Shown piece after piece: positions 36,881 to 64,000 of a stretch of DNA of 64,000 bases (position 1 is its first letter; the number at the start of each line of letters is the position of its first letter). The DNA comes from Lactarius indigo (taxonomy: Eukaryota > Basidiomycota > Agaricomycetes > Russulales > Russulaceae). The position numbers and the translations under genes are program-made. The DNA lies in assembly GCA_025766275.1 (NCBI GenBank), contig JAFKAC010000053.1, positions 124,001-188,000 on the forward strand. The letters run 5' to 3'. A model generated the notes under the pieces. That model saw only the letters and a list, made by a program, of their open reading frames with translations. It searched no databases and had not been told where the DNA came from.

Positions 36881-36927
36881 ACTGTTCGACAACTTGTCCG
36901 TCTCACGCTCTTTGGCTTCGTGTGCTC

Positions 36928-37145
36928 CCGACTTCCCACTGCCGAACTCACCTTCCTCTCCGCATGCCATACAGCGCTGATGAAGGACAGAAACGTCGCT
37001 GACGAGGCGCTCCAACTCACTCCGTCAGTGCAGCATTTATTGCCGATTTCGAAGCATGATTGAGACGGTACAGGCCATTGCAGACATGGACAGACAGGAC
37101 CTTGCAGAGTGCTTCTACACGCCAGTGTTCCCGCCCAATGGGTAA
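36928..37145 (+). pseudogene. CHAT-domain protein relic (copy 2)
   Basis: Reads LPTAELTFLSACHTALMKDR, NVADEALQLTPSVQHL, then after a frame change CRFRSM, AIADMDRQDLAECFYTPVF and a GTAAG donor. The SACHTA motif with its Cys is kept, unlike copy 1, but the frame break near 37030 inactivates it. Its position left of DUF6535 copy 3 matches that of copy 1 left of DUF6535 copy 1. Confidence 0.5.
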
Positions 37146-43830: not shown

Positions 43831-44283
43831 TTGGACCGCGTCATACGACAGCATACACACAGACTGAGAAAAGGTTTTGAATGTATCGGTGTCGTAATAT
43901 CGAGGGCTCAACACGAATATATTCCCTATCGAATCTAAGAGATTAGGGGATGCGTCAAACGATATCGTACTGGCTATGTGAAGGGTGCCGGGGATGATCT
44001 CTCGTACGCTCAGCATTTGTTTCCCACATTGAAGGACCTGCGATGACTACGTCCAAGTCAGTAACCGACGGCAGTGACGGGGGTTGTGGCAGATGATCCA
44101 AGGTGTTTGGGTCGATGGCCAGATTCAGCGAGGGGGGGTCAAGAGCATCCTTGCTGTTGCGCAAACCAGGTTTATGGCCATCATCGTCCTCGGGAGCAGC
44201 ACCCAGATCAGGTGCAGAAGTCGGTCCCGGGAATGTGCTGGGAGCAGTGGTGACTGTTATCGGGAGACAGGGGCCTGGGAAAG

Positions 44284-46250
44284 TCAGTTAGAGGGTAGGA
44301 TTAGGTCGTCGGTGGAAGTGAAGAGGAACTGCGGTGCACCTGGAGGAAGCATACTGTCGAGAGCTAGGTTTGAAGCTGAAAGTGGGAGATTTGGTGAATC
44401 TACAGGCGTCAGGGTTTCTTCATTTTTCTGGAGGGGAATGGCAGCGGGTGGAGGGGAAGGGGAACAAAGAGGGGATGTGGACGTTTTGGAAGTGGGGTGG
44501 GGCGTTGTTGCACCAGCGGCAGTTGAGGTAGGAATGTGAGGGCTTTTTATTGTTGTCTGAGGAGCGGGGTGGAAGTCGTCAAGAGGCGGTGGCATATCCG
44601 TGGTGCTTTCGACAATACGAAGTGGGGAACGTACAGATGGTGAAGGTACATCGGGGCTGGCAACAGAAGCAGGGACTGGCACTGCGCTATCATTCAGGAC
44701 AGTGTGAACAAGGGTGGTAGAAGTAAAGTCGCGAATATGGCCAGTGACGTTGCACACTGGATATGCGGATGGCTCATACAGAATGACATTCCAATTGCGC
44801 GTGGAGGCTGAGAATCGTGTTGGCATACAATCGCTATCTTGATGCAGAGATAGGTAAATCTTGCGAATTGGCATGAGGATCCAGCACGCCCTCTGCTCGT
44901 CGTTGTCATTCTGAGCTTTGAGAACAATTTGATTCCAGAGAGCACAGAACTCGTGCTGCAGTTCAGGTGACGTATCCAGTACATCGAATTCAGAAGCTGC
45001 ATCTAGAACGCTCCGGAAGTCGCTAGATGGCCAATAGGGTTCCATGAAATGGTCAAATTGCTGGCGAATGACGTGAATCAGAACGGCAAGTGACAGGTTG
45101 TTACCATTTGCGGCATAGTCCCGAAGGACAGGTTCCGGGACGCGCAGTTCACTTGAGGCGAGAATGAACCACGAGTCATCGCGTGGTTTCGACCTTGCAA
45201 TGATATTGGTAACGACAGCTTGTGTAACCAATCCAGTGCCTTGATTTCTACCACTGCCCCAGCCTCTTACAATACAGCCAAATTTGCTCGTTTGCAGTCC
45301 CATATATTTGTTTTTGAACATGATATTGCCCATAAGCCGATGGTATTTGTAGGAAAACAACGCCGGATCAAGGGCCCTGACGCAGACGATAGCTCGCCAA
45401 TTTTTGACCGACTCTGGAAGCAAATCTGATGAGAATGTGCGATCAAACAACCCTATCAATGCCTTCGAAAGCTTATCCGCTTGCTCCCAGGTGAGAAGGG
45501 GAAGAGGATCTTTGACGAACTTTGAACTGCGGAAGCCAGGTAAGCCGGAAAAGAAGCGCTCGAGTTCGTGGTCTTTGTCCAAACTGTCGAACGTCCACAG
45601 AAATGCGCGAGTGTCGATCTCCGGTGGTAATTCCAGAGCAGTTTCCTCGGCTGTCTTCTGCATGCCCTGCACAAGCCGTTTGCGATATTTTTCCTTCAAT
45701 GTTTGAAAGCGACTGTAGGATTTACCACTGAAATAGAACAACAAAGTGAGTCTCCGAAGAGCCTCTAAAATGAAATATGGTATCCCAATGACGATGGACC
45801 GGGCCGGTAATGAGAGTGGGGTGTGGTATGGGCTGTCGTGATGAAAGATTGGGAAAAATGTGATGCACCCATACAGAGCAGTGCAAATCCCGATCCAAGA
45901 CACCACCGAATTGAAAATCGTCAGGTCAACGTTCCAAAGGAACACAGAGATGCCGGCAAAGAACAGAAACAGGGAAACGTGCAACAACGTCGGAAGCACT
46001 TCAACTGCCCACGGAAGGAGAGACTTGTCAACACCTTCAAAAAAGAATGCACGGATCCTTGCTCACTTGTGTAGACTGTAACGTGGCTGGGTGACCTTGA
46101 GGTATCTTCGTGCCCACTGCTGAAGTAATGTTGCGAGTAGAGCACAGCTGATACTGATGACCAAGCTCAAGAACAAGAGCGTGTTCACCCAGACTGCATG
46201 ATTCGGCGGAGAAAATGGGGGCGGAGAAGGAGGAAGGGTGCTCGAAATGG
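44284..46250 (-). pseudogene. DUF6535 membrane protein, copy 4, truncated and with nonsense codon
   Basis: Body closely matches copies 1-3 from SPPPFSPPNHAVWVNTLLFL onward: membrane segments 2-4, the middle region and a short Ser/Pro tail. TGA at 46063-46065 replaces Arg CGA of the other copies in SLHK-R-ARIRAFFF. Exons 1-2 and the first membrane segment are missing: homology stops at about 46250, where the sequence passes into DNA leading to the 44-bp minisatellite. The copy therefore lost its promoter and N-terminus by a rearrangement at that junction. Its 3' flank matches copy 2. Confidence 0.85.
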
Positions 46251-46434
46251 AGCCCATGACGCAAATCCTTGCGATAGACTCGGTAAAGCCCATGTGCAAT
46301 TGTGCCATGTCAGTCGGCAAAGCCCATGTGGGCCCATTGTTAATATAATGTGCATATATTTGTATGGGCCCATCAGGCTTGTCTGCAAACAGTCTCGTGT
46401 GGGCCCACATTATCTGTACCGCTGGTAGGATAGC

Positions 46435-48325
46435 TGCCGAACGAATCGCTTGCATGGGCCCACAATGCACCTATGACATTTGTCCCGATGAGATTGTAAT
46501 TGGCCCATGCTGCCAAGGTGCGCATGCTGCCGATGAGCTTGCATTGGCCCATTCTTTGCATGAGTGAATTCTGCCGAACAGCTTGTATTGGCCCATTCTG
46601 CCCATGGGTGAATTCTGCCGAACAGTTTGTATTGGCCCACACTGCCAATGTGTACATGCTACCGATGGGTTTGTATTGGCCCACGCTGCCAATGTGTACA
46701 TGCTGCCAATGGGTTTGTAGTGGCCCATGGTGCTCATGTATTTTCTGCTGACAAGCTCGTATTGGCCCATTCTCCCCATGGGTGAATTCTGCCGAATAGC
46801 TTGTATTGGCCCCTGGCGCCGATGTGTGTATTCTGTCGATGAGCTTGTATTGGCCCGCCGTACTCATGTACGTATTCTGCCGATGAGCTTGTATTGGCCC
46901 ATTCTTCCCATAGGTGAATTCTGCCAAACAGCTTGTATTGGCCCACGCTGCCAATGTGTACATGCTGCCGATGGGTTTGTATTGGCCCATGGTGCTCATG
47001 TATGTATTCTGCTGACAAGCTCGTATTGGCCTATTCTTCCCATGGGTGAATTCTGCTGAATAGCTTGTATTGGCCCATGGCGCCGATGTGTGTATTCTGT
47101 TGATGAGCTTGTATTGGCCCGCTGTACTCATGTATGTATTCTGCTGATGAGCTTGTATTGGCCCATTCTTCCCATGGGTGAATTCTGCCGAACAGCTTGT
47201 ATTGGTCCACGCTGCCGATGTGTACATGCTGCCAATGGGTTTGTATTGGCCCACGGTGCTCATGTATGTATTCTGCTGACAAGCTCATATTGGCCCATTC
47301 TGCACATAGGTGGATTCTGCCGAACAGCTTGTATTGGCCCACGCTGCCAATGTGTACATGCTGCCGATGGGTTTGTATTGGCCCATGGTGCTCATGTATG
47401 TATTCTGCTGACAAGCTTGTATTGGCCTATTCTTCCCATAGGTGAATTCTGCTGAACAGCTTGTATTGGCCCATGGCGCTGATGTGTGTATTCTGTCGAT
47501 GAACTTATATTGGCCCGTTGTAATCATGTACATATTCTGCCGACGAGCTTGTATTGGCCCATTCTCCCCATGGGTGAATTCTGCCGAACAGCTTGTATTG
47601 GCCCACGCTGCCAATGTGTACATGCTGCTGATGGGCTTGTATTGGCCCATTCTGCCCATGGGTGAATTCTGCCGAACAGTTTGTATTGGCCCACGCTGCC
47701 AATGTGTACATGCTGCCAATGGGCTTGTATTGGCCCATTCTGCCCATGGGTGAATTCTGCCAAACAGTTTGTATTGGCCCACACTGCCAATGTGTACATG
47801 CTACCGATGGGTTTGTATTGGCCCACGGTGCTCATGTGTGTATTCTGCTGACAAGCTCGTATTGGCCTATTCTTCCCATAGGTGAATTCTGCCGAACAGC
47901 TTGTATTGGCCCATGGCACCGATGTGTGTATTCTGTCGATGAGCTTGTATTGGCCCACTGTACTCATATACATATTCTGCTGACGAGCTTGTATTGGCCC
48001 ATGGTGTTTGTGTGTTTATGGCTTATATTGGCCCATGGCGCCGAAGTGTACTTGCTGCCGATGAGCTTGTAATGACCCACGGTAGAAGCGTGTGTATTCT
48101 GCCGAATAGCTTGTATTGGCCCATGGCGTCAAGGTATGTATCCTGCCGATGAGCTTGTACTGGCCCATTCTGCCAATGTGTGCGTCCTGCCGATGTGCTT
48201 GTATTGGCCTGCAGTTTCTTCTTCCAATGAAGTTGGCTCACAGTGTTCATATCTGTACTCTTCCAACAAGCATGTATTGACCTGCAATGCCCATGCATAC
48301 ATCCTGCCGATGAGCCTGTATTGGT
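46435..48325. repeat. 44-bp minisatellite with 264-bp higher-order repeat
   Basis: About 43 units of 44 bp, most beginning CTGCCGA (or CTGCTGA) followed by AGCTTGTATTGGCCCA. Unit ends fall into types: ...CAATGTGTACATG (A), ...TGCTCATGTATGTATT (B), ...CCCATGGGTGAATT (C), ...GCCGATGTGTGTATT (D), ...TACTCATGTATGTATT (E). The order D-E-C-A-B-C repeats in the middle of the array, a six-unit period of 264 bp. Units decay toward both edges. Long open frames on both strands inside the array come from lack of stops in the unit, not from coding. Confidence 0.93.
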
Positions 48326-48338
48326 ATAAGGAGTGTAG

Positions 48339-50006
48339 CTATGGCATGAGATCATAGTTCTCCCCAAAATATGTAGTATTCAGGCTCTTCCCTCTCTCAT
48401 GGAGACCCACAATTTGCTGCCGAAGTGACTCAAGGACCTTCTCATGGCTATCGCATCTGGATTTCAGATCCTTAATTGTTTTCTCTTGCCAGTCACATCT
48501 GACCTTTAGACTCTGGACCTCCCGTTCGAGCTGTTTAACTATATTATTGTTATCTTCGCCCTCAGCTGCTGATCGATGTGGTGAGCATAGAACCAATGGA
48601 AACTAGACCCAATGCACCTGGCGATGCCTCCTCATTGGTTCCCTCCATTGGTTTATTGAGAGGTTGAGCTTCGACCTCCCGGTTGTTGTCAAGGTCCTCT
48701 TCTGGGTGTAGAGGCTTGCCCTTCCTTGAGCTTGTCTTCATATCCTGTTTCCCCTTACCTTTGATATTTGGCCTAGCTGCATTTGGATTATTATTTCCTG
48801 CATGCCTCCTAGTCTTGTATATAGTGCTGATAGCTGCTTCACCAATATCATCGGCAACACTCCTTTTCGCTGCCGATCTGGTAACAATTTCTTTAGCTGC
48901 CAGTAAATGTGATGAGCATAGAACCAATGGAAGCTAGACCTAATGCACCTGGCGACGCCTCCTCATTGGTTCCCTCCATTGGTTTATTGAGAGGTTGAGC
49001 TTCATCCTCCCAGTTGTTGTCAGGGTCCTCTTCTGGGTGTAGAGGCTTGCCCTTTCTTGAGCTTGTCCTCTTATCCCGTTCACCCTTACCTTTGATATTT
49101 GGCCTAGCTGCACTCAGATTATTAACTCCTGCACGCCTCCTAGTCTTGTATGTAGTGCTGATAGCTGCTTCACCAATATCATCGGCAGCACTCCTTTTTG
49201 CTGCCGATCTGGTAACAATTTCTTTGGCAATTTTATTCCTCAACACATCTGCATGACAAAATTCAGGACTCACTGCGAACACCACTACCAGATGCATACA
49301 AATCCTTCTTCCTCCTGGGAATAGGGGCTCTTGGATTGCCTATCTCTGCTGAGGGCTCTTGAGGTTCAGATGCCATAGGTTCTAGACCAGAAGCTGCCGC
49401 TGAGGTAGTCATTATGTTTCCACCTGCTGAGTTTTCTTGATGCTCAGGTGCTATAGGAGCTGGACTGGAAGCTGCCGATGGCATATTTATCATCATGCCG
49501 CCTACTGACGCCAAACTGTCCATGCATTCTTGACAAGAAGCTGCCGATGTCAGTCGACAGACATGAATGTCAGAGAGAGGATCCACACCATTTTGGCCTG
49601 GTAAATGTATATTCAGTGGTGGGAGATCCATTGGTGAAGTATAATAGTTGCTCATCAAAATCCTTGGATCCTTCACTGAGACTGAACTTATTTTCACGGA
49701 GGTTCCACCCTCTCTGATCACTTCCATGAGGCTTAACAACAGTGGGTGAATGCGGGGAGGTACAGAGCCTCTTCTATTGGCACCAAAATAATAGTCCACT
49801 GAAGTCTTCTGCATAGACCTCAGCTCAGCTTATAGAAGTGGATTGTAGGAAGACTAGAATACCAAGTGCGTTCTGAATTTCTTCCTCCACACCTTTTCAT
49901 CTCTGGGTATGCATGCATGATAGGCTTCTAGTTCCTTCTCGAGCATAGCTGCATAGTGGTGAAGAGTTTGTTCGTCCTGGGTTAGACTGAGATTGGAAGT
50001 TGACAT
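48339..50006 (-). CDS. Unrecognised coiled-coil gene with tandemly duplicated segment
   Basis: Multi-exon minus-strand gene beginning MSTSNLSLTQDEQTLHHYAA at 50006; an intron of about 39 nt joins RTHL to LRSMQKTSVDYYFGANRRG. Then an acidic/Ser-rich part (SAASCQECMDSLASVGG ... AEIGNPRAPIPRRKKDLYA), two copies of a basic segment (KEIVTRSAAKRSAADDIGEA, NIKGKGERDKRTSSRKGK, PLNKPMEGTNEEASPGALGL), and a C-terminal coiled coil (VKQLEREVQSLKVRCDWQEK ... SHEKVLESLRQQIVGLHERG). The basic segment resembles a nuclear-localisation region. The repeat unit is a 331-bp DNA duplication. Exact internal exon borders are unsure. Inside the KDZ-like block; function unknown. Confidence 0.6.
48576..49228. repeat. 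331-bp tandem direct duplication
   Basis: Copy 1 about 48576-48897, copy 2 about 48907-49228. Corresponding bases are 331 apart at both ends (48583/48914 and 48870/49201) with roughly 90% identity. It duplicates one coding segment plus an adjoining probable intron of the coiled-coil gene. Confidence 0.9.
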
Positions 50007-50769
50007 GGTCACAGAGGAAGGGTGGTGTCAATGGTCTTATGGATCAAAGGCAAGAGGTGTCGGGAGTAGATATAGGAGGAAACAGTAGGAGCGTGGCCTG
50101 GGTATGTCCATCTATAATTATCAACTATGCAGATAGATATATTGTGAAACATCCTATTAGGGGATTGTAGTTTCATCGGCAGTGTGTGTGGGTGTACTAT
50201 ATGGGCCAGGCAAGCGCTTCACTTGCCGGCATATTGTTGGGGCTGCCGCAAGTTTGTTGGGAGCTCACACATGGATTCCATTGACCCACACAGGCACGTT
50301 TCAGAAGATGTTTCAGGAAAGATTATTGGGTGTTATGCGTGCTGCTTGCATGGGCTTAATTTGTTCAGCCAGCAGTCAAAACACAAACATATGGCTGGCC
50401 TATGCCCGTGTCTAACCCGGCAGCTCTTGTATCCAGCTCGGCAGCTCATGTGTCTATCCCGGCAGCTCTCATGTCTAACCCGGCAGTTCTCTTGCTTTTG
50501 GCCTGTTCCAACTAATTAGAAGGGGATATAGATTGTTGCCACCCCATGCAACTTGTTTCAGATTCATAGATCCACATGTGTACATAAGCGCTTATGACGT
50601 CATACTGTGAGGGACATCTGCTGATATCCAATCAACAATCTATCAACCATGCAGGGGAAGTCCTCAGAGATGAAACAAGGTGTCTATGAGTCAGAGGAGA
50701 ACAGCTTCAAGGAGGCGGTGTGTGTATCAAAACTAATGCTTTACTAGAACACTGAGCCGATGCCTATAG

Positions 50770-51161
50770 ATGCGATCTGCATTCTGGAATGGGGTCAAAC
50801 TCCTCAATGGAATGGAGTCTGATGTGGGTCAACACCAGCAAGGAATGGTGGGACCCTCCGGCCCAACAGCAGATGCCGAAGGTTTCAGCGAGGTCCCGAA
50901 AAGTGTGACACTCTTACAACCTGTGATTGGAAAGCTCATTGACAAGGTAACTCAAGTGTCATCTGATTGACATCAGCTAAAACAATCCAGGATCCTCCAA
51001 AGGGTGTCTCTCCGCGATGGCTTTCAATTGCCAGAGATCGAGCTAACCTCCTGAAAGATAAGCAATCAGAGAAGATCGAACTATTGGAGGAACTTCTGCG
51101 TGATTTGGACAATGAGATGGTTATGGCAGACGCCTTCATTGGGGAGGATCGGCAGCTGTAA
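50770..51161 (+). CDS. Small unrecognised gene, two exons
   Basis: Exon 1 from ATG 50770 (GPSGPTADAEGFSEVPKSV, TLLQPVIGKLIDK) to a GTAACT donor at about 50948. A 44-nt intron ending CCAG at about 50991 restores the frame to DPPKGVSPRWLSIARDRANL and KDKQSEKIELLEELLRDLDN, stop at 51161; about 115 residues. The second half is a likely coiled coil. It points away from the flanking minus-strand genes. No family recognised; the splice is inferred from phase and consensus. Confidence 0.45.
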
Positions 51162-51195
51162 TCATATTCTGTGATGTGTAGAACTACAGTAATCA

Positions 51196-51887
51196 TCAAC
51201 CAGAGTTTTCATTCTCCAAACGAATAGCCTCTGCCTCAAAACTGCGATAAGTATCATCGAACATGTGATAAATGGAATCGCGGCAGCTCTCGATATTCTT
51301 GGACAGCTGCCGAGCTTGTTTGAACCCCTCTGTTACCCTAGTGCGAAGACTTGAGCTAGCTTCCTGCTGCAGTTCCAGTTACTTTGAGGACTTGTAAATG
51401 AAGCAGGGTGCATACCATCTCTAGAGAACGCAACAACTCTGCTACTAACTCATCGCGGACATCAAATGGTTCTTTCATAGTCACCCCTTCTCCAATTTTC
51501 CACCACTCCGTAAGTTTAAATCGTGGAATGGCTAATGCCTCAATCTTGCATTTCAGCCTCTGGTCCGCATCATGTGCTGCATAGGATGCCGGGTTCCTGA
51601 TGTCCGAAAAATGGTGAAAGGCAATCCTGACTGCCTCTGGCACATGAGGGGGGCTGCCGCTAGACGATAAAAGGCCAGTGACCCATACGGCAGCAAGCTA
51701 AATCCAAATTCTGATCAGAATGTGTTCCACTTGTTTTAGATGGAAAATTAATGCTTGCCACTTCATTGTGTAAGCTGGCGATATACTTTTCATCTTTATC
51801 GGCAGAGTTGAGCAAGATAGAGGATATTCTCTTGCCGATGCAGGTGAGCACAGCATCTAATATAGAGGTGCCTGTTTCAGCTGACAT
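51196..51887 (-). CDS. Unrecognised three-exon gene
   Basis: Starts MSAETGTSILDAVLTCIGKR at 51887; middle exon PEAVRIAFHHFSDIRNPASY ... RFKLTEWWKIGEGVTMKEPF ... ELVAELLRSLEM; final exon QEASSSLRTRVTEGFKQARQ ... YHMFDDTYRSFEAEAIRLEN, stop at 51196. The last intron, GTATGCACC...ACTGCAG, has good borders; the first is not resolved. About 200 residues, mostly helical. Adjacent to the KDZ transposase gene and in the same orientation. Function unknown. Confidence 0.45.
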
Positions 51888-51995
51888 AGTATGTAGTGTG
51901 TAACGTGAATGGAGTGTGATATTGCCTTTGGAAGCTGCCTATGAGTCCTAATAATCTAAGGTAGGGTTACGCTGCCAAATCATACACGTGATCCT

Positions 51996-52260
51996 GGGAC
52001 CATGCTCGGCAGCTCTCCCGACAACTTTGGACCAGCACAATGGGTTCTATGGGCCAATGGGTGACCATAGACAGAGACTATAGGCCCATATGAGGTGTTG
52101 GCTCGGCAGCTCAACCCATCGGCCTACACTCGGCAGCTCTCCTAACAACTTTGGGTCAACACAATGGGTTCTGTGGGCCCATGTGAGGATGTTGTTTGCC
52201 AGTTCCCTGCCAGCTATTGGCCAATACAACGTCATCAGCAGCGATTCCACTGTCTACATG
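51996..52260. repeat. 124-bp direct repeat with GGCAGCT motifs
   Basis: CTCGGCAGCTCTCC-GACAACTTTGG at 52005 recurs at 52129 with CACAATGGGTTCT...GGGCC after it. Each unit contains one or two TCGGCAGCT motifs and TGGGCC, the same words found in the 44-bp minisatellite. Confidence 0.6.
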
Positions 52261-52374
52261 GCTTCCCTTTTAGTAGATAGAAACAAGCCCAACTTGCCAT
52301 TAGATGCTGCCAATATTTTAACCCCCAATGACTACCAACGACTAGTTGAGATTACTGTATGTATTTGAATAATT

Positions 52375-55300
52375 TTATCTACTCGTTTTTGGCTGTAGTA
52401 GGACCTTGGCAAACTCAGGAGGTGGGTCACTCTTAAGCAAAGCAGTAAACTTGGACCCCGCCTGGACAGCCATTGAACTCCACATAGCGCTTTGTCTTGC
52501 TGCCCACACAGCATGCCCCGGCTGTGACTGGGGCTCAATGAGCTCCTGCTTTGTTTGCCAAAATTTCTCTTGATGTCTGAAGAACCTAATGGCAGAGTCC
52601 ATCTCGACTTGGAGACACTGAAGCTCTTCAATCCACCGCATTTTTTGAGCTTTTGCTCGAAGCCAATGGACCCGGTAGACTGTGTGGAGTGTTAGATTTC
52701 TTAAGCATGTATGAACAGAGTAGCCCGTACAATCTTCCATCCATTCCCCAACGTTGGCATCTCTCCGAACATCCATTGTCCAAAACCAAGGCAATGATTT
52801 GTTCCGTTGTCCACGCACATGGGGCGCAATTACGCTTGTCTTGACACTCAAGTCCTGGCGCCTCAAGACTTTGTACCTGTCAAGGAGAGAGCTGCCGGCG
52901 CCAAGGTCTACTATTGCCTGCCGTGCACAAGTATACACCCGAGCATGATGTTGAACAGTTGACTCGGCAGCATGCACCTCTGTCCAAGCACGAGTTTTGA
53001 GTCTCTGTGTACGTGCTGGACGAACGTCATGTCTGAACAGATAGGATTTGTGTCCCAGGGCAATGCGAATATGATGCAGAGTGTCATTGAGTTGGCCCTC
53101 CCTTAGGTGAAGTTCCGCCTTCGCCAGGTCTTCGGCACCATTTTTGTCACACCAGTCATATCCGAGATGTGAGGGGAGATGCAATGGGATATACTCCGCA
53201 TCAATACTGCCGTCAGTGGAGTTATTTCCTGATACTTGCAATTGATCATGTTCTTCGGCAGATGATGCACACTCGTCATCGTCTTCTCCTTCACCGATGC
53301 CATCAAATTCGATGCCGATATATCTTTCTCTTAAAGGGGTGTTATCCCAGGAGTCACCTCCACTGTCAGGGGAAGCCCGGAGAATGTTAGCTGCCTGCTT
53401 TTGGAACGTGTCAACTCTTTCTTGAAGCCGAGCATGCTTCAAGGCAATATCTCTTTGTTGATCTGGTGTTGGATGGGACCCAATCTTCCTTTCCAGTGCT
53501 TGAAGGGATAACCTACATTTTTTGTGAAACCATGATCAGAAGTCTCCCTCAGAAAGCTGCTGAAAATCATACTGCATCTCCTGAATCTTCAACCCGCTAC
53601 TGAGCCACGTAGCATGCCCCTTATGGCCAGAGCCCTCTATCTCCTTCTCTGTCAAATCAAGAAGTATTTCTGCACACGATGGGACTGAATCCTCATGTTA
53701 GGCAAAAACAATCATGGAGTAACCAGACCCACATCGTTTCATCTTGATGTCATAGATGTCCATCACTTTTACATCACGACCTCGCTCCCTTTGTGCGTGC
53801 TCCTCTTCGGCACCCCAAGCCTTAATACGTTCTGGACTTGCCGATGCACTTATGGACTCAAATGCTGCCATGCTCAGCATAGCTGCCAAAAGTGCCTTTC
53901 GGTAGCGTCTAGACACGGCATTGACTACACAACCAGAGTGAGCACCAGTGCGGCATCCATAGGAAAGAACTTGCCTAGGTCGATAAGTTTCTTCCAATTG
54001 GAGTCGTTCATGTGGTCGTCTATGACCTCCCTACGGTGTGATGTTGACATCCCCCTTGTGCTTCTGGTGATCTCATTGAGTGGAGCCCAAAGTGTTTCAA
54101 TGGCCTCGCCATCGATTTGTCGTCCACCTTTGATAAAGCTGGGTGAGTACCTAGCTAGGCAGGTATCTTGGTGTCCATGTATGTGAAAAAGGCCGATGCC
54201 CAACCTAAGCTCCAGGTTATCAGGAACTTCAAGATAGTTGCTGCCGACAACCCTCTCCGCCATATGAACACTCCATTGACACATGACATCGTAGCAGATG
54301 AGGGCGGCCTCTATTCCCTCCATATTAAAGTTCAGGGCCTTGAAAATGGAGTAGTCCATGTTCTTCTGGCTTTTGGAGGTTGGTTTTCACCTAGCATATG
54401 TTGATAAATATGAAAACTCACGCTTCTCCCTTTTGAAAGTCAACAACAGAATCAGGGACAAAGGCCCCATGAATACAGGCTGTGGCGCCAATTCCAGTTG
54501 ATTCAAGGTGTGAGCTATGCTTGTTTACATTATTTACTGCACGGTGATCATGGCATGTCGACCTCTGCTTGAGTGTGAGCTTTCCTCTGCCGAAATACAA
54601 GACGTAGTACCGACCTGCCGCCTCTCAACTGCCGATTTCAGATGCGATTCGTATGGTTCTTGGCTGACCATGAACCCTGTGCCTTCGGAAAGTGGAATAT
54701 CATTCTCTGGATTTCTCATCTTCATGTGCTCTGCCTGGAAGTTGCCATCCATCATGAAACCTCGCATAAAAAGGACGTCGCTAAAGTGATATATGTCGGC
54801 AGCTGCCAGGTACCGATGTCTATTAACACACCTATTTTCATACTCTCTCCAATCTTCAGGGAGGTTGATCCCGGGTTGTGCACACAAAGCACAAAATATA
54901 GCCATCGATCCTGACTTCTGTTCTTCATCCCCTCCATACCCAAAACCAAATCGCTTTTGGGAAATGAGCACTCTCCACTGTCGGCAGGCCCTAAGAAGCT
55001 CCTGATATCGGTCCTAAGTATTCCACTTAGTTTACCGTCGGCAGATAGGCTTGTAAATCCTCCTACCGGCACTGTATTCGGAAACTCATCATTTGTGAGT
55101 CTCCTTAGGCGACTGAAAAACTGGCTCGGGGTTGTCTTGCATTCAAGATTATCCAAATGGAAGTCTTCTAGCACCCGGAAGGTAAATGCTGTCTTTGGGT
55201 TGCGAAATGTAGCTGGAAAGAGCCCTGCCGTCATCAACTGCATGTCGTGCTCGGGAGCTTCAGGGCAGCAGCACCAGCTGACACCAATATCATGAACACC

Positions 55301-56144
55301 AGACCTATCAATAACAGTAATGATTGGGTTTCCGTCTTTGTCACGACGACCAGGTTTTGAGTTGTTGTAACCAAGGTTGGCAGCTGTGCCGAAGCCAAAG
55401 TCAGCAGCTGTGTCATATTCATTTTGGCTGCCGACCTGGCAGTCTTCATCGTCACAGTCCATCTGTGACTGTGTCGATTGGGATGTGATTTAAAATATAA
55501 AAGGGTTCGCAACACACGCTTTGATTCAATTGATTGGGGCATAAATCTCCAGAGTGTCCAAGACGCAAGCTTACCCCAACCTCCCACATCCAAGATGAAA
55601 TAAAGTATTTTCCTGTCCATCTCTGGACCCTGTGGAAAGGGAGCCACTGGTGGGACTTCCGGCAACACTCCTTGCAGAGCACCAGAGTAGGAAAGCATTC
55701 AGTGCACCTCCACTCAAATGGAGCAGACATGCAGCTCTGACACGTTGTCATAGCAGGGACGCCCTCAGAATCGAGGAGGCAGCGCAGGTAAGGGCCAATC
55801 CTAGGAATAAACTCCTCCATATAGGTACGTTGGGACTGAGACATGTCAATTACTGTCAAGGACAGACGTGTGAGTGAACTCACTCTTTTCTGTTCTGGCT
55901 CCTCTATCCAGAATGTGTCGTCGATATCCATAGGTGGAGGATCAGTTTCATGCAAAGTTGCCTCATGATTGTCTATCTCTCTTCCACCAGCACCTCTCCT
56001 TGGTACTGGCAAATCTGTTGAGGTGATCACTTCAACTGGGACGCTTCTAGTTCTTCGAGAGCTCTCCCGAGTCACCCAGTTGATTATCTTGGCCTTAGAC
56101 TTTCTCTGGAAGACTTTGGATGCCTTTATACCTTTGGGTGCCAT
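52375..56144 (-). CDS. KDZ transposase with CxC2 cysteine cluster
   Basis: Multi-exon gene, start MAPKGIKASKVFQRKSK at 56144. Order: basic N-terminus; CxC2 zinc cluster with C135, C138, C147, C150, C157, C160 and the following HQWLPFHRVQRWTGKYF; CxC2 C-terminal part (VIDRSGVHDIGVSWC ... LFPATFRNPKTAFTF ... NLECKTTPSQFFSRLRRLTN); then the KDZ RNase H-like transposase domain: CALCAQPGINLPEDW, Asp of DGNF (about 54748), CHDHRAVN, FVPDSVVDFQKGE, Asp of YDVMCQW (about 54290), GIGLFHIHGH, Glu of ETLW (about 54098), and a C-terminal part (LREGQLNDTLHHIRIALGHK, RNKSLPWFW, VHWLRAKAQKMRWIEE). Introns show short GT-AG pairs, and one GC-AG donor is likely near 53985. A TGA at 53536-53538 falls between exons or is a nonsense change; I cannot decide. 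KDZ enzymes mobilise large fungal DNA transposons. Confidence 0.9.
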
Positions 56145-56366
56145 GGGGAGCCAAGATAGGTGGGGTTTTGCATTGTGGCGTATATGCTTGGAGGAGTGCC
56201 TCTTATCAGCCTACCGGAAAAGTTGGCGGTCCGAGTATTGTTCTGGCAACTTCAGTGGCTTCGGTAGCTTCGGCAGCTTCGGCAGTCTAGATATTTCATT
56301 TACAGCTTTGGCAGGCCAGGCATTGTATTTGCAGATCGGATAGATCTGGACCTATAGCTGCCCACT

Positions 56367-57397
56367 CTACTGTTGGTGGATTTGAGGGACCGGCATCGGC
56401 AGCCTTGCAAACCACTCTGGGATGTTCAACGAGTCCAATGTCTGTTGGAGACATTCTCTGGACATCTTCCTTCCAATGCACCTGATGTCCTCACCGATAG
56501 CCAATGGCCACTTCATGAATGTAACGCATTTTTTATTTACTTTATATGGATATGGGACGATAGACCATATGTAGCTAAATACACATGTAGCTTGAACAAG
56601 TGCTGGGAAATTGGTATCACCAGCCATAACGCTGCCGAAACTTCCTCGAATTAACTCTGAGAAGGTGTGTGAGGCAAGGACACAGCAGATAAGTTTTTAA
56701 TCACATACCCTCGACCATCCCATATAATAGCGCCATCCTCCCTAGCACATGTAGCGGCATACCCAGGTTGCTGTACCAGCTCCACTTCTTGAATGGCGCC
56801 AGCTACCAAGCGTCGTAATCCATGAAGGCGGATTGAGTCTTCTTCTTCTATTCCTGGTACTGCTATAATACTTGCTGCTTCTGAAAGCCGCTCTTGAATA
56901 AAGTCTTCAACATGCTTCTGGAATGGCTCTATCCACGGGAAAAGGCAGAATGTTTGAAGTATGAATTTCAACTCATCGAAGCAGTTGCAAGCCCTTTCTT
57001 CCTCCTCTATCATGTCTGGGGTTCTTCGGGAATCTGCCGATTTGGATTGTAAGATGAGAGAACATTCATAGCCCCTTGATATCCATGTGAGAACAAAGTC
57101 ACTGGAGGGGGTAGCAGACGCACCAGGAAAGAGCAGCCTTTGAGCACTTCGGCAGGTCCTCCACTGCCATTAGCATGCACCTCTGCGCACACCTTTCCTC
57201 CAATAGTGCACGCTCTGCTTTGCTGACCTTTCGGTACCCAGGTGCTCGCTTCCGCCGAGCATATTCCCGCTGGTAAGTCTGGAGGGGTTTTTTGTTCCTA
57301 GGAATTTAGCACATAAGATATCTGGCCACTCATATTGAAGAGCAGGGAAACAGTGCCATAATATTACTCACCTTTGATAGTATGCTGTTCTCTTCAT
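56367..57397 (-). CDS. Unrecognised KDZ-block gene with basic N-terminus
   Basis: Start MKRTAYYQ at 57397. Exons joined by GT-AG introns give a continuous protein of about 280 residues: QREYARRKRAPGYRKVSKAE (very basic), TPSSDFVLTWISRGYECSLI, EEERACNCFDELKFILQTFC, IEPFQKHVEDFIQERLSEAA, AGAIQEVELVQQPGYAA, EDGAIIWDGR, then PALVQATCVFSYIWSIVPYP and KWPLAIGEDIRCIGRKMSRE, stop at 56367. Lies between the transposase and TET/JBP genes in the same orientation. The basic start suggests nucleic-acid binding, but I recognise no domain. Confidence 0.55.
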
Positions 57398-57644
57398 CGT
57401 TTGCTGTAAGGGAAAAGGATTGTGGGACAACAGCCTGTTATACATCCACAAATGGGTCCTGTAAAAGGCAGTTATTAAGGCACCTGAAAGTGCAGCCAGC
57501 CATCATTTTGGAGTCTGTCATCTGGGCGCATCAGTTGGTAGCTGCCGAAGCACGATCTAGGGTCCTTAGATGGCCTGGTTTTGCCAATGTTGCAACCAGA
57601 CCCTATTTACGATATCAACAGTGCCAAGATAGATAACCGCTAAG

Positions 57645-57980
57645 ATGGGTCTGTCTTGACAAAAAAACAAAGCATTTATCTTGTGCAGCCAGGTTGAGAA
57701 ATAAAGCTCGATAGTATAGACTCTGAGGATGCAGTATGAGCACGCCCCATTAACATCATGAGGATTTTGATTGTTCGGCAGCTCAGAGGAGGGAGCACTC
57801 TGCATTCACAAATCTAGATCCTCAGTCACTGTAGACAAAAAACAACAGATTTGTCTCGCACAGCTAGATTGATACATAAAGCTTGATAGTATAGTCTCTA
57901 TGAAAGCAGTATGAGCACGCCCCATTAACATGGAAAGGATTTTGAATTGTTCGGCAGCTCAGAAGAGGGGGAATAGGCAA
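57645..57980. repeat. 175-bp tandem repeat, two copies
   Basis: CAGTATGAGCACGCCCCATT at 57732 and 57907 lie 175 apart; similarity runs about 160 bp, including GTTCGGCAGCTCAGA near each end. Lies downstream of the TET/JBP gene; probably non-coding. Confidence 0.7.
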
Positions 57981-58236
57981 ACTCAGGTTCTTGGCCACTA
58001 CAGACCACCATTTCACTTTTCTTGGGAAGATGTACGCGCTTGAGACATTTGGTGAGCTGCTGCAAAAAACAACATTTCTTCGCATCTGCAAAACATTGAG
58101 CCAACAGATGAGCTGCCAACCCCATAGATCTGCTCCAATGGCTATGCCCCATTTCACCTATGCTCATTGCTAGGGACATAGAAGTCTGACTTCACTGAGG
58201 GAAGGAAATATATATAGGAGAAAGCACTGGAATTCT

Positions 58237-59540
58237 CTACGCTACCGGATAGCAGTCTACTGACATCCAAGATTTCCCTGGCACCTTAGCCCACTCGTGC
58301 ACTCTATCCCTCATAAAATATACATAGCACACTCTTTCTCCTTCAAAGTGCTCCACTTCATGCTCCAACATTGCTGCTAACACTCCAACTACCGAACCAG
58401 GACCATACTCAAGTGAAAGTCCAAGACCCGGCAGCTTCAAATTGCAATTTCGGTAGCTTCCTACAGACGCCAGTAGGTCATACCATTGTTTTCTGGAACT
58501 GACATCCCGATGTGGTGGCGTGAGGCGGTTGCATATGACAGAGATGCCGCTGTAAACGGATGTCCATTTGTGGAGGATCTCCTGGGGCTTGATCTCAGAG
58601 CAGCTTCTTAGCACTTTGAAGGTATCCCGACCGGCATCATAAAGTTCCAGATGAATGACAGCCAGTATCGCACCCATTATTGAATTCGTTTCAGTGGCGC
58701 GATCTAGCCAGTCTAAGGCAGCTGGATTTTTCAAAGACACGGAGACCTGAGGGAAATTTTGTACCGTCTCAATTGAAATCAGCTACCGAACAAGAAAATA
58801 TTACATGATTAAACAGCTCACCTCATGCCCTTGTTGGAACCATGCAGGTGAAAGGTCAATTAACCCTTGATGGCCATCTAATCCCGAAGGAAAGTATCCT
58901 GGATCAAGGCGCCAAGAGGTGCCTGTTCGGCGCTTTTCCAGCAATGGATGTAACTCCGCCGTCGCGGCCATCATTTCACTCTAAAATGCATATTCAATTT
59001 GATGTGGTGATCGGACAAGGTGAATAAACTCACTTGCCTAGAATCATTCAAGATTCCAGGAAGGTGCCATGCCAATATAACTCCCTGCATATCAACAATA
59101 ATGCAGGGTCTTGAAATGGGAATGTCGGCAGCTGAATCATTCCGTGGAGGATATTGCCTTCTCATAATGGCCTCGCCAGCGTCTGCGGCAGCAGTTCCCG
59201 GCCTTGGGAACTTCTTTGGGAGCTTCTCCGCATAACGCGTAGCATCCCACTCTATCTTCACTGCTCAGATTATTTCAGAAATTGATGCCTGAGTGGCTGG
59301 TCTACATAACTGACCGCGGTTCATGAAGGCCTCCACCAGAGTGAGTGCCATTCGGTCCAGCTCCAAAATTAGATGCACCGGCAGCATCAGGGGGACTTGT
59401 GGCGCCATGGCAGCGTCAATCAGCTCAGAGGAGCGCTCATCTAACTTGAATCGGAACTGAGCTTGGAGATATTGGGCACAGAGATGCGAGAGACTCAGGG
59501 GAGTGAGTCTGCGGGAGTTAACAGGCTGGAAAGACTGCAT
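58237..59540 (-). CDS. TET/JBP 2-oxoglutarate-Fe(II) dioxygenase
   Basis: Four exons inferred: 59540-59315, 59260-59034, 58980-58822 and 58746-58237; introns 54, 53 and 75 nt, all GT-AG with phases that match; about 373 residues. The C-terminal catalytic domain carries the iron-binding HxD motif (CNRLTPPHRD, H283 and D285), the distal His (LEHEVEHFEG, H333) and the 2-oxoglutarate-binding Arg region (GERVCYVYFMRDRVHEW, R342). Spacing and the YFMR-VHEW ending are those of fungal TET/JBP proteins, which oxidise 5-methylcytosine. N-terminal part (DAAMAPQVPLMLPVHLILEL, EWDATRYAEKLPKKFPRPG) has no domain I know. Fungal TET/JBP genes are known to travel with KDZ transposons (Iyer and colleagues, 2014), and that fits the neighbours here. 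All catalytic residues are present, so activity is plausible. Confidence 0.88.
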
Positions 59541-59710
59541 ATTCTAACCGTTAAGGAACTTGGTGCAGAAGACTAGCTGCCGATCCACCCGAATTCCGTA
59601 GTTTTTCTAGCTGCCGATAAACAAACCCACGCTGCCAAGCATGTGATATCGTCACTTAAACTGCCGCAGATTGTCAGACCTTCAGTCTGTCCCTCCCGTG
59701 AATCTTCCCC

Positions 59711-62597
59711 ATGCCTGAAAAAACAACCAAGAAAGGTGCCAAGCCCAATTCTGTGCATCGCAGTAAGGGGGAGAAGGATGTAGCTCTGTCAGATGATGAA
59801 ACCTCAGACGAAGACTACGACTCAGGTCTAGAGTCTGAGGGCTCGTATCCATCTTCTGACTTCGGGTCAGTTGCATCTGGCGAGTTACGTTGGCTCGCTG
59901 CCGATCTTGAGGACGAGGTGGGAGGTGCCACGAGTGAAGAAAGGTGTGTATAACCATTGTATTTACGCAAACGCCCTCTGTTGATGTCACTTCACAGCCC
60001 CTCAAAGCAGGACATTGAAATCACAGATGAACAAGCGAGCATGTTGCAGAAGCACACTGCCGAGTTCCGGGCTGCTGATGCAGATGGTCGGTTAAAAATC
60101 ATCCAAGATTCAGTGGACCGCATTGAGAGACACTGGCGACAAGGCACCAAATTTGATAGAAAGGTCGTAGAAACAGTATGTGCACTCTTGGCTACATTGT
60201 CCAGCCCTGATATTTTGCAGCTTGTCCGCCGGTACCTTTACAACAAGTGCCAACAGGAGCGCAAAAGATTCAGCTTTCGTCGCAAACGATGGACATATCA
60301 CGACATTTTGATTGACCATCACCGGCAGGAACTGGACAAGATGGCTGTTGAAATGTCTGGGTCAACGCCAGGATCACGAAGCTACCTCGGCTGTTACAGG
60401 AAGGCTGTGAAGTTAATTGGCGAAAGGTTGGATGAAGACACACAGGTGAAGTACCGAGCAGAGGCAAAGAAATGGGCAGAGCAAGGTGTACCTCCTCGGC
60501 AGCAGCAGCGGTATGTACATGCCAATCATTTTACCAGATGGAAGTTGACTAAATCTCACCAAGGATGTTTGAGAAGCACGGTATTCATACAATCCGGGAC
60601 TTTTCTGAGACCATGTACCGCCAATATGGAGTGCGCGTTGCTATTTTGGGGGGGTATTGTGATGATGACGGACCCTCGATCATGTTGTGCGTATACAAAG
60701 CTATATACTTACAATCTAACAACCTATCAAATAGCTATGACAACAATGACGAGCTGGGCGGAACTTCTTTCAAAGCCCGGTACAAAGGCTGGTCAAAGGA
60801 CCCACTGGTTGAGGAGTTCTCAAGATGGACTGCCGAGTCTTTTGGTTAGCGTCTATTTCACTTCAAGAGAAATGTGCTAATATGACACCTTCGTAGGGGA
60901 ATACCCTGCCGATAGCGGTGAAGAGGACAGAAAAAGGAAGGATAAAACCCCTAAGGTGAAGCTGCCGATGGACGAAAATGGGTACCCTGTGCTGCCGAAA
61001 TGGGAAGACATTGATCGCGAGGGCCTCATGTACAAGAAGGTGGTCATTGGCAAGTTCATGAGTGAGATGTACCGTGAGTGAACTACAGTTCCCTGTTGCC
61101 AACCTAGCCAGTTATCTGATTCTCAGAGATTGCTGCCGGTGGGAGCAAGGGAAGGGTCCCATGGGCCAGAATACATGAGGCCCAAGGCGACTTTATTGCT
61201 GCCGAGTACCTGCCGGAAGGGGTCACTCTGACACAATACCATCACATTCGTCTCCATGACGCCAACTCCCTACTCAAGCACTGGATACAGAGGCAAGCTG
61301 CCGGCGAGATCCCATTCCGCTTCAAGAAAGTGGATAAGGCTAACAGGCATTATGATGGTGAGCATTCAACCGGGGGTGGGTCTAATGGACAAAGCCAAGA
61401 AGATGGTGCTGGGAGTCCAAGCAGTGTAAGTAACTGAGCTCCCTTATGTTTCTGTAACTTAGGCCTCACCCTCACCAGAGCGCCAATGGTCAGCGGCCTC
61501 ATTGTCATGAACTCCCTTGTTACCTTTTTCTTTGCTGCCCCTTATCTGATCCATTCCCTTTCCTGGCAGTTACCTATGCTTCCCTTTTATCTGATCATTC
61601 TAGCACCTTCCATGCTATTCTTGTTCACCCTTCTCCTGCCTTGCTGGCACGACACCATCTTGTATGATGTTGACACCATCTTGCCAGCACATTACTCTAT
61701 CTATAGCAACCAGTAGCACTATTCGCTCAGGCGCAATCCTGTACTATATAAGGAACCCTGTAGTGCGCCTTAGCTCCTTAGCTTTGGCTTAATCAACTAT
61801 CTGCGTTGTATCTCCACTGTCTCCTTGAGTGCCTCAGTCCCTTCAGCACTCAAGCCCTTGACCCAGAACCTCTGATCCTTGACCCTCATCCCCTTTGGGT
61901 CATTCCCCTCTCAGCCTCTGTGCAGGCCTCCCCTTGACTTCGCTCTCATCCTCTTCCTGTCTTACTGGTCAGCCCAGTGACACGTGACCTTTGGACTTCG
62001 ACCACCGAGCTTGTCCATTGCTCCAGACTCAGTCACCTTAACACAAGGGGCTGTTACAGATGGACCTTCCCACCTCAGTATAGGGGGATTGCCACAGACT
62101 CAGCTACCTTAGCATAGGAGCTGTTACAGAGGACCTTAGGAGTTGTTGCACACAGTGCCGATCCGACTTGGCTGTCGACTGCCATGTGACAGGAAGCCAT
62201 TACAGAAGACCACGCCCCCGCAGAGGCGTGACACTCATGAGGAGCTGCCAATGCAAGAAGATGGGGGAATGCTGCCCCCACACCCTCCCAACCCCCCACC
62301 TCCGCCTCCACCTCCTCACACTCGCACTCGTCCTCGCCCTCGCATCATCACGCAGCACCCAGCTCCCATCGGCAGCTCAAGGGCGGGTCCTGCCCAGGAA
62401 CGCTCCCCTGACGACCAAGTAAGTGACCTAAATTCAATCTAGCGCCTTGAAACTCAGGGCCTCTCACCCAGGTAACTGCCGATACCCCCCCCTCCAAGTG
62501 CCAGAAAGTTGATCGCCGTTTGACAAATACACAGAATGACACTCGGCGCTCAGCGCGCGTAACGTGGCCTACAGAGCGGGCTAAGCAAATTCAGTAA
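59711..62597 (+). pseudogene. KDZ-associated HMG-box-like gene, interrupted by solo LTR
   Basis: Exons inferred: 59711 to about 59943 (acidic/Ser-rich), 59997 to about 60512, then MFEKHGIHTIRDFSETMYRQ, NDELGGTSFKARYKGWSKDP, KRKDKTPKVKLPMDENGYPV, IAAGGSKGRVPWARIHEAQG, then a Pro-rich exon (QEDGGMLPPHPPN) and a last exon ending RRSARVTWPTERAKQIQ, stop at 62597. Introns are about 45-60 nt with matching phase. WTYHDILIDHHRQELDKMAV followed by YRAEAKKWAEQGVPPRQQQR resembles an HMG box, the type linked to fungal TET/KDZ clusters; this is moderate inference. The Pro-rich exon is split at 61502/62239 by a solo LTR (61503-62233, TSD CTCAT). Without the insertion the frame runs through, so the gene was intact until then. 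Confidence 0.65.
61503..62233 (+). mobile_element. Solo LTR with 5-bp target-site duplication
   Basis: 731 bp starting TGTCATGAAC and ending GCGTGACA, flanked by CTCAT at 61498-61502 and 62234-62238. TATA box CTATATAAGG near 61745. Inside, an imperfect tandem repeat of about 70 bp (GACTCAG...CTGTTACAGA...GGACCTT) lies near 62028-62140. No internal retroelement genes, so it is what remains after recombination between two LTRs. Inserted in a coding exon. Confidence 0.85.
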
Positions 62598-63219
62598 GTG
62601 ATAGCTTCCTCATTGACTCTAGAAGGTGAATGTGTCCAATAGGAGCAGCGGCATGTCTGCCAGGACCAGAGTGGGTCGCTAGAAGGAGGAGGGGCAAGGG
62701 GCATACACCGCTGCGGATGATTAGTATCTCCCTCACATCCCTTTTCTGGGTTCTCACTTGTACCAAGCGTCACTCAGAGTGTAACATAAATATCTATCTA
62801 TACACGTGTTGTGCAAATTTTCAGCACCATTAAATGCCTTGACAATGATATAGTGTTGCGGCAGCTCAAGCCAACATTTTTGCTGCCTTGGGAAATAAGA
62901 TGTCAGAGATCTGAAAATATTTGGGGAGGTAGATATTCTCAAATGCTGAGGAATCCTCCGCCAACTCTAAGCGATAAAATCGGACCGTTTGTGAGTTATT
63001 TGACCAGTTCTGAACAGCTGCCGAAACATCACAACCAACTCACAATCACGCAGGGCGAAACAAGACAGCAAGTGGAGATTGTATTTGATACAGACATGGT
63101 ACAGTAGGGCAGTGAACTAGCTAGATGTGAGACAAGTATGTAAAGAGATACCGAGGCAGAGGGAAATAGTAAACAAAACAAAAACGATGCCAAAAAATGC
63201 GTAAAGTAAGAAAAAGGTC
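62598..63219. other. Spacer with TGCCGA motifs
   Basis: No supported gene. An open frame at 62811-63107 lacks family features. Contains GGCAGCTCAAGCC (62861) and CAGCTGCCGAAAC (63018). Confidence 0.4.
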
Positions 63220-64000
63220 TTACAATCCGCCCTTCCAGTTCTCATCTTGCGTGCGTATCCATTCTTCAATCGCAGCTACCCTTCTCTCCAAGGCCACCAT
63301 GCTGCTGCTGCTGGGAGACGGCACTTGTGACTCCTGGGCGGCAGAGCTTTGCTGTCGCGAGGAGACCGAGGGTGGTGGGTTCGGCACCAAGACATACGGC
63401 ACGAGTTTCTTCCTCTTCGATGACATGTGCCGACGGAGAGCGGGGGCTATGGAGGGGGAGTGGTCGTCAATGGGAACAGGAAAGTCGGCAGCAGGGGTAG
63501 GGGGAATGGGAGTGGCGGCGGCAGGGGGAATGGCGGTAGCAGTGGTAGGAGGAACTGCAGCAGCAGGGGAAGGGGCGGCGGCGGCAGAGATGATGGGAAT
63601 TGAAGTGGGAGTAGGGACAGAGGGCTCAGCAGCTGCGTCTACAGCAGGGAACAGCTCCGCAGAGGGTGGGACGGGCGACTCAGCTGCAGACGGTGAAACC
63701 AAAGCTGCCGAGCGAGAATGGCCATGAGACGACCCGCTGTCCAGCTTCATCCTCCCAACCATCCTTGAGGCAAACACTACCGAGTCTGAACCCACCCTGA
63801 CCCCACGCCTCGGCTGCTTCCCCTTGAGCTGCTCAAGGCGGAACTTGAAGACCTGCTTGGCCGTCAGTATCCGCCGATCTGCCTTGCCTGTCTTCGCGTT
63901 TATGGGCATCAGACTGCATTGCTGCTTCTTCTCCTTGCAGCGAATGCAAGGCCCTGTCGGCCTTGTCTGGCAGTCGACCCCTGCACGGGTGCATCGAGAG
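63220..64000 (-). CDS. Zinc-cluster protein, N-terminus beyond window edge
   Basis: Open on the minus strand from base 64000 to the stop at 63220, at least 260 residues, 5' end outside. Near the edge: RCTRAGVDCQTRPTGPCIRC followed by KEKKQQC, giving C-X6-C-X7-C-X2-C-X6-C. With one more Cys upstream this is the fungal Zn2Cys6 binuclear cluster pattern, a DNA-binding domain. Then a basic stretch (KADRRILTAKQVFKFRLEQL), a long Ala/Pro-rich low-complexity region (about 63480-63700), RRHMSSKRKKLVPYVLVPNP and a short C-terminal coiled coil (MVALERRVAAIEEWIRTQDE). Likely another passenger of the KDZ block. No break seen. Confidence 0.65.
   Translation of the reverse strand, partial: SRCTRAGVDCQTRPTGPCIRCKEKKQQCSLMPINAKTGKADRRILTAKQVFKFRLEQLKGKQPRRGVRVGSDSVVFASRMVGRMKLDSGSSHGHSRSAALVSPSAAESPVPPSAELFPAVDAAAEPSVPTPTSIPIISAAAAPSPAAAVPPTTATAIPPAAATPIPPTPAADFPVPIDDHSPSIAPALRRHMSSKRKKLVPYVLVPNPPPSVSSRQQSSAAQESQVPSPSSSSMVALERRVAAIEEWIRTQDENWKGGL

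Follow-up and report, generated by a model that had tools for sequence, protein, structure and literature searches.

Why should a six-base word containing a CpG crowd one transposable element of a mushroom genome and fall to about chance density in the DNA beside it? The question is raised by a 64,000-nucleotide stretch of the milk-cap mushroom Lactarius indigo, of the Russulales (the window; C241:124001-188000, in a genome of 90.3 Mb in 291 contigs), whose right-hand part holds a DNA transposon with a KDZ transposase gene and a TET/JBP dioxygenase gene. Positions are those of the window, and extended coordinates run past its end. The word is TGCCGA, and a sequence-only reading of the window had proposed it as a binding site for the transposase, for a cysteine-cluster domain (CxC2) or for the TET/JBP machinery. 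Our analysis suggests that a dedicated recognition word is indeed the best reading of the data, although transposase, CxC2 and TET are probably not its main binders. Rather, we lean towards the view that the word is the address of a system by which the transposon recognizes itself, with a predicted zinc-cluster protein encoded by the element as its reader.

The density of the word is not in doubt. Between 48351 and 64000, TGCCGA and its complement occur 59 times (about 55 had been counted by eye), where a second-order Markov model expects 6.8 and 300 dinucleotide shuffles of the same stretch gave a mean of 5.9 and a maximum of 15. From 46435 to 64000 there are 79 copies against 8.4 expected by the same model, and from 1 to 46434 there are 24 against 20.2; the earlier estimate for this left part had been 15-20. 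The octamer GCTGCCGA is found 34 times in 48351-64000 (shuffle mean 0.41, maximum 3) and, together with AGCTGCCG, is the best 8-mer when the element is compared with positions 1-46000 (34 versus 1 and 28 versus 0, respectively). The fuller word is approximately AGCTGCCGA. Information is near nil outside it and flanks past about five bases are almost uninformative, so the TGCCGA copies are not pieces of a longer repeat. As the sequence-only reading had also noted, the word is used in both orientations, with 38 plus and 37 minus copies in the element body. The observed/expected ratio of CpG is 0.54 inside the element and 0.92 and 0.97 in its flanks; a CpG-bearing word is thus enriched in DNA that is otherwise poor in CpG.

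The unit that carries the word is larger than the block first described, as it runs from 46250 to extended 68849. Both ends could be fixed because a second copy of the element, at C1:432988-469064, was available for comparison; it has different flanks, is bounded on both sides by the 7-bp sequence TATCCCC, and is 99.3% identical to the window copy over a 12.6-kb aligned block. The element has imperfect inverted ends (GAGCCCATGACGCAAAT / CACATAATGACGCAAAT), with the terminal dinucleotides GA at its start and TG at its end, and the TET/JBP gene lies inside the matching ends of the two copies. Enrichment follows these limits: 46251-68842 holds 110 TGCCGA, while the adjacent 10 kb on the left side has 4 and the adjacent 15 kb on the right side has 6. 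The copy on C1 has 115 in the 22,005 bp common to both copies and 1 in its two inserted stretches (14,066 bp).

On the scale of the genome, AGCTGCCGA occurs 1739 times, versus 589 for its reversed control. Positions were listed for 100 of the 1739 places, with contig C1 completely covered. Of the 56 occurrences on C1, 25 are inside the TET element and the remaining 31 correspond to 7.8 per Mb, compared with 7.6 expected from equal bases. The sequence-only reading had named two findings that would refute it, an equal density in ordinary genes and a lack of enrichment at other KDZ elements; in the parts of the genome that we covered neither refuted it, given the chance density on the rest of C1 and the enrichment of a second TET family described next. 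The genome has 39 TET/JBP matches and at least 175 KDZ matches, and the sequence-only reading had asked about other KDZ-TET loci. A second, diverged TET-KDZ family, which we call B (C13:1250001-1260000; the element in the window belongs to family A), is enriched for the same word, with 20 GCTGCCGA in 10 kb, and the notion that the word is confined to one putative transposon must be given up. Using a weight matrix trained on family B only, with a threshold of 11 bits or more, we found 65 sites in 18.3 kb of A, or 35.5 per 10 kb. The same matrix gave, per 10 kb, 1.3 in the left part of the window, 0.7-2.0 at KDZ loci without TET and 2.3 at ten 10-kb control loci (11 had been chosen, but L025, on C50, proved to be a copy of family A with a TET match at C50:53206 and was dropped). 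Furthermore, in a comparison that also drew on these ten control loci, the best CpG-containing 7-mer never exceeded a z of 7.6 in 29 control windows of 5 kb, compared with 20.6-30.6 in four A windows and 19.5 and 20.8 in two B windows. Among the sequence that we sampled, both TET-KDZ families are marked by the word, which elsewhere is no denser than chance predicts. A check for even, nucleosome-like spacing found family A sites random and family B sites mildly even. Apart from these two families, the best-scoring TET match of all (C112:436940) has a different frame length and a match to the candidate reader 12 kb away at 42% identity, and it could possibly represent a third TET lineage.

The aligned blocks of A and B, 72-83% identical, also indicate that the word is being kept. 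In the alignable DNA there are 28 A sites and 33 B sites, 15 of them at the same place. B retains 54% of the A sites (15/28). The corresponding figures are 22% for other 6-mers that contain CpG (binomial p 3e-4) and 29% for all remaining 6-mers (p 0.005). At 8 of the 18 sites private to B, A has TGCCAA or TGCTGA, the forms that decay of the CpG leaves. These observations bear on an explanation without any recognition, in which a codon or protein-repeat bias, CpG retention or dispersal of the minisatellite created the pattern. Some copies do lie in tandem repeats, and those in open frames often read Ala-Ala-Asp/Glu or Ser-Ala-Ala. Nevertheless, we give this explanation almost no credence: with tandem repeats masked, GCTGCCGA still counts 35 versus 0.6 expected, and deamination removes CpG words, as the decayed sites illustrate. 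Chance, composition and CpG bias are ruled out by the shuffles, the Markov models and the 29 control windows. Coding bias is ruled out by the eight open frames (the KDZ, CxC2 and TET domains among them), which hold 20 copies in both orientations and all three phases, the word occurring outside open frames as well. Dispersal of a longer repeat is ruled out by the flanks.

If the word is recognized, is it a site shared by KDZ elements in general? We sorted the KDZ classes by the open-frame length of the KDZ match and sampled classes C-H by 5 kb around one gene each, with no TET match nearby, and by 15 kb for three of them. None of these six loci without TET is enriched for the A word, which rules it out as a general KDZ site, and KDZ transposases as general binders are disfavoured for the same reason. 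Instead, three KDZ classes besides A/B carry different CCG-containing words, mainly in arrays. In class C (C46), GTCCGAGAT is repeated in four tandem arrays around one gene, with units of 38, 14, 23 and 16 bp, and occurs 2689 times in the genome versus 406 for the control; the best CpG 7-mer has a z of 21.8-27.0 in three pieces of this class. In the locus sampled (C46:1043501-1058500; L036/L041/L042), its arrays lie 2-3 kb downstream of the KDZ match, between KDZ and the reader cluster. In class D (C168), a 24-bp array contains TTAACGGAA and TTCCGT. The 11-mer GTTAACGGAAT has 48 places in the genome against 23 for the reversed control, and 36 of the 48 follow one of the seven class D genes at a distance of 1.8-2.6 kb downstream. 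Class E (C90) shows GTTTCCG in dispersed form (12 versus 0.8 expected in one 5-kb piece), ATTTCCGGAAA in 33-bp arrays and the palindrome TTTCCGGAAA at 142 places versus 31 for the control; among the places listed, 20 of 50 adjoin class E genes, and the listed places reach to contig C168. For classes F, G and H, CCGCTT looked promising as a word but was not above control windows.

The geometry of the ends deserves separate consideration. The 44-bp minisatellite at the left end carries CTGCCGA, as had been seen by eye, and the 20 TGCCGA in 46435-48350, which includes this minisatellite, are all plus, while the 13 in the right array are all minus. Such an arrangement resembles paired end sites, and the element has a CxC2 frame; the word could be a site of the KDZ transposase itself, bound through CxC2 or another cysteine cluster, whose subterminal role has spread inwards. 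We consider this unlikely. As many as 75 of the 110 copies lie in the 18-kb body between the end arrays, and the class C arrays are also found between the KDZ match and the reader. In addition, a different word, GGCCCA, is the one restricted to the ends, where it often lies within the palindromic TGGGCCCA: the left end (46251-48350) has 38 copies and the right end (66401-68842) has 62, compared with 11 in the intervening 18 kb. Because it is concentrated at the element ends and TGCCGA is mostly in the body, GGCCCA is a better candidate than AGCTGCCGA for the end site of the transposase. In L017, which lies about 12 kb from a family B TET gene, GGGCCCA is dense as well.

What kind of protein might read these words? 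CCG/CGG is the half-site of fungal Zn2Cys6 factors, whose cysteines follow the spacing C-x2-C-x6-C-x5-12-C-x2-C-x6-8-C. Since the words have CCG/CGG in common, and half of a cluster had already been seen in A, a Zn2Cys6 protein was expected beforehand. A six-frame scan then found a complete six-cysteine cluster in two copies of A (on C241 and C11) as well as in classes C, D and E, and the cluster is likewise present in the family B reader exon (C13:1249170, 691 bases). The same scan gave no complete cluster in positions 1-46250 of the window, and there was none in the pieces that stop short of the reader gene (the 5 kb of F, G and H; L017, L025 and L030). The spacing is 2-6-7-2-6 in A and B and 2-6-11-2-6 in D and E; the first loop counts 7 in class C, and the middle one 13 in some relatives. 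A protein with this spacing fits better than CxC2 or TET, because its class binds CGG/CCG. The other full-length matches of class A are 91-98% identical to the candidate reader of A. Proteins related to it are known from Lactarius species under the label hypothetical protein. Among them are a D-type of 503 amino acids (P0024), an E-type of 529 (P0028) and a class C-like protein of 538 (P0035), each of which has a conserved N-terminal part and the cluster, followed by a region that looks heptad-like by eye.

The predicted reader genes are linked to the transposases. Of 133 KDZ matches, 114 have a reader match (137 in all) no more than 30 kb away, on the same strand in 113 cases and with the reader upstream in 112; 87 KDZ matches are within 10 kb of a reader match, and at most 2.9% of the genome is that close. 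In 30 of 39 cases the reader is 4.2-4.9 kb from the TET match. Most KDZ matches thus have a related gene upstream, and a six-cysteine protein is present in the five classes read far enough.

Profile comparisons hint at the same protein class. The cluster alignments and profiles were built from cluster-bearing relatives only (14 sequences), in which the six cysteines are invariant. Against PDB, with E up to 10 allowed, the cluster profile has six matches, the best at E 0.4 and every one a Zn2Cys6 protein; the best of 29 matches of a longer profile is LEU3 (E 0.014, spanning all six cysteines), and 13 of the 29 are Zn2Cys6 proteins by name. Pfam Zn_clus was matched by 10 of the 14 members at E up to 10, the best at 5e-4. 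The reader cluster is therefore likely, but not proven, to be of the Gal4 kind. A search of NCBIfam with the reader gave nothing useful, and the VANC domains DUF1985/DUF287 showed no match to the reader proteins at E up to 10, so the reader is not a member of the VANC family. In the Zn_clus alignments, the second half-cluster fits the start of the profile for C, P0010 and P0014, and the first half fits its end for A and D; the order of the two half-clusters is possibly swapped in these readers.

Three things lead us to infer a chain from word to protein: the two occur together, CCG is a half-site of the predicted protein class, and clusters turned up in C, D, E and B once the expectation had been set. 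The words could alternatively be bound by a protein of the host, such as one of its own Zn2Cys6 factors, exploited by the families or employed in silencing them. In favour of this, fungi have many Zn2Cys6 factors and the word is a short one. However, the word is at chance density outside the elements, other classes are marked by different words, and the elements bring their own cluster protein; we find a host protein quite improbable.

In the model that we prefer, self-recognition through an encoded reader, the predicted zinc-cluster protein would bind the CCG word of its own family, probably as a dimer given the coiled-coil-like region seen by eye after the cluster. The classes that carry other words have other versions of the cluster protein, and in the TET families A and B the word is present throughout the whole body of the element. 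Bound at many sites across an element, the reader would keep the family transcriptionally competent or unsilenced, and specificity would come from the density of sites and not from single sites, as passages of the work on VANC21 indicate (PMC5735166). With less confidence, we suppose that in A and B the reader would also concentrate the co-encoded TET dioxygenase on the element. A fuller version, in which a family-specific reader guides the transposon-encoded TET to its own copies, demethylation and mobility are self-targeted, and the whole is an independent counterpart of VANC, is one that we put forward as tentative and somewhat doubtful. The same anatomy could also serve the opposite purpose. 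The reader may be a self-repressor or a controller of copy number that uses the word to check its own family, as a dense family word with an encoded putative binder fits repression equally well. The co-occurrence with TET in A and B suggests relief of silencing instead, and the analogous plant system is anti-silencing as far as it is set out in parts of PMC5735166; repression seems to us distinctly unlikely.

Several observations weigh against self-recognition through a reader, or restrict it. Classes without TET have both a word and a reader, so recruitment of TET would not be the original function but a secondary one. As A and B are 72-83% identical, their common word counts as one origin. 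Among the other classes, D is above control in one of three pieces (z 15.8, an array) and E in two of three (z 12.3, and 7.9, which is barely so); F and H are at control level (z 6.6 and 6.5), and the z of 15.5 in G comes from four copies of another word. Family words can thus be claimed for A/B, C, D and E, most weakly for the last two. For class C, 88 of the 100 listed GTCCGAGAT places on C1 are in two arrays without a listed KDZ match (59 and 29), with 7 beside a listed class C gene and 5 scattered. On the side of the protein, an intact cluster is present in 19 of 34 reader relatives (annotated models), and the linked gene of classes F, G and H is known by a 24-38% match to the N-terminal part only. 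Homology between the N-terminal part of the A reader and its C/D/E counterpart was considered and is not significant (probability 2%). Around 16 of the 29 PDB matches of the longer profile are unrelated, mostly one periplasmic protein, and in other Zn_clus runs 4 of 10 proteins were matched, all below the 21-bit cut-off.

The two arrays on C1, at C1:329382-333384 (59 GTCCGAGAT) and C1:828191-831386 (29), often have a spacing of 81 bp. It is possible that they are non-autonomous elements or satellites bearing the class C word.

The features of the element are collected in the table below. A second KDZ piece (54537-55013) matches PF18758 at E=0.002, which is below the cut-off, and for the frame at 59954-60877 Pfam gave no match at E 0.01. 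About 731 bp (61503-62233) are missing from the C1 copy and match L017:3167-3904 at 89% identity; they are probably a short insertion nested in the element. A 331-bp tandem duplication (2 copies, 92%) at 48576-49225 borders the left minisatellite on its inner side; in each duplicate, two TGCCGA stand 20 bp apart in inverted orientation. The eight frames checked in the window's left part match long terminal repeat (LTR) retrotransposons and DUF6535; three frames in 27342-45999, adjoining the element, match DUF6535 above the cut-off and a fourth matches it weakly.

Features of the KDZ-TET element in and beside the window (extended positions continue past 64000)
Feature	Position	Strand	Remarks
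KDZ-TET DNA transposon	46250..64000 in the window; end at extended 68849 (C241:192849)		17.75 of 22.6 kb inside the window; comparison of two copies
Left 7-bp target-site duplication, CGAAATG	46243..46249		Right copy at extended 68850-68856, outside the window
Left terminal minisatellite	46485..48209	+	44-bp unit, 39.5 copies, carries CTGCCGA and GGCCCA; TGCCGA all on + strand
Element body inside the window	48351..64000		59 dispersed TGCCGA, 34 of them GCTGCCGA
21-bp tandem repeat	50407..50491		4 copies; contains CGGCAGCTC
KDZ transposase frames	53928..55013	-	PF18758, E=1e-30 (53928-54386), above cut-off
CxC2 cysteine-cluster frame	54755..55489	-	PF18803, E=3e-26
TET/JBP dioxygenase frame	58240..58782	-	PF12851, E=1e-15, above cut-off; translation shows HRD with histidines downstream
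Open frames of a further gene	59702..61434	+	Exon structure inferred by eye
Candidate reader frame	63223..64000 (frame end extended 64002)	-	260-amino-acid open frame with CSRCTRAGVDCQTRPTGPCIRCKEKKQQC
Right-end array	extended 67374-68621, outside the window		Period 44/87/175 bp; TGCCGA all on - strand

How does this element compare with known systems? KDZ elements with TET have been described as the AG-type Kyakuja DNA transposons of Agaricomycetes (Kojima, 2025, PMC12730594), which, in the parts of that account considered here, have like ours a KDZ transposase, a TET/JBP gene and a 7-bp duplication, with Russulales among the host orders. Two Laccaria bicolor families there have CA..TG ends and no inverted repeats, whereas here we find GA..TG and imperfect inverted ends; because of these differing end features we file our element as KDZ-TET and not as Kyakuja. 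The parts of that paper considered here name no family-specific word, and the words subterminal, minisatellite and zinc are missing from its main text; in section 4.2 it is speculated that TET of the AG type has no target specificity (PMC12730594). A family-specific word with a linked zinc-cluster protein makes the possible targeting of transposon-borne TET in mushrooms amenable to a concrete and inexpensive test. Our searches of an open-access library showed no report of these words or of the zinc-cluster companion gene.

The closest likeness is to the sequence-specific anti-silencing of VANDAL elements by VANC in Arabidopsis (Hosaka, 2017, PMC5735166; Sasaki, 2023, PMC10398659). According to passages of these papers, VANDAL families have a nine-base motif that is dense in the element and sporadic elsewhere, with tandem arrays, different motifs in related families and an element-encoded DNA-binding protein, to which our putative reader would correspond. 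In L. indigo we likewise find a dense, family-specific short motif, tandem arrays and rarity elsewhere, and the position of the class C arrays, between the KDZ match and the reader, recalls the noncoding targets of VANC. Unlike in VANDAL, the word here has a CpG, open frames also contain it on either strand, and a TET enzyme of its own can be part of the element. VANDAL also belongs to a different superfamily (Mutator-like) and encodes a different protein. In maize, TnpA of En/Spm is element-encoded, binds many short CpG-containing subterminal motifs and has a reported role in demethylation; its sites are only at the ends and the protein is unrelated to our reader. Gal4-type Zn2Cys6 factors resemble the reader in their six-cysteine spacing, in the basic cysteine loop, in a heptad-like stretch (by eye) and in the CCG/CGG of the candidate words; unlike them, the reader is borne by a transposon and falls below the Zn_clus cut-off in two runs.

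If the proposal is right, each family may find and wake up only its own copies, which would go some way to explaining why numerous KDZ families can share a genome without activating one another. Sequence-specific anti-silencing would in that case have arisen independently in fungi. The natural pairs of short word and binding domain could then also serve for targeted DNA demethylation. In conclusion, the KDZ-TET element is of a known kind, and self-recognition by a dense family word is known in plants from VANDAL and VANC.

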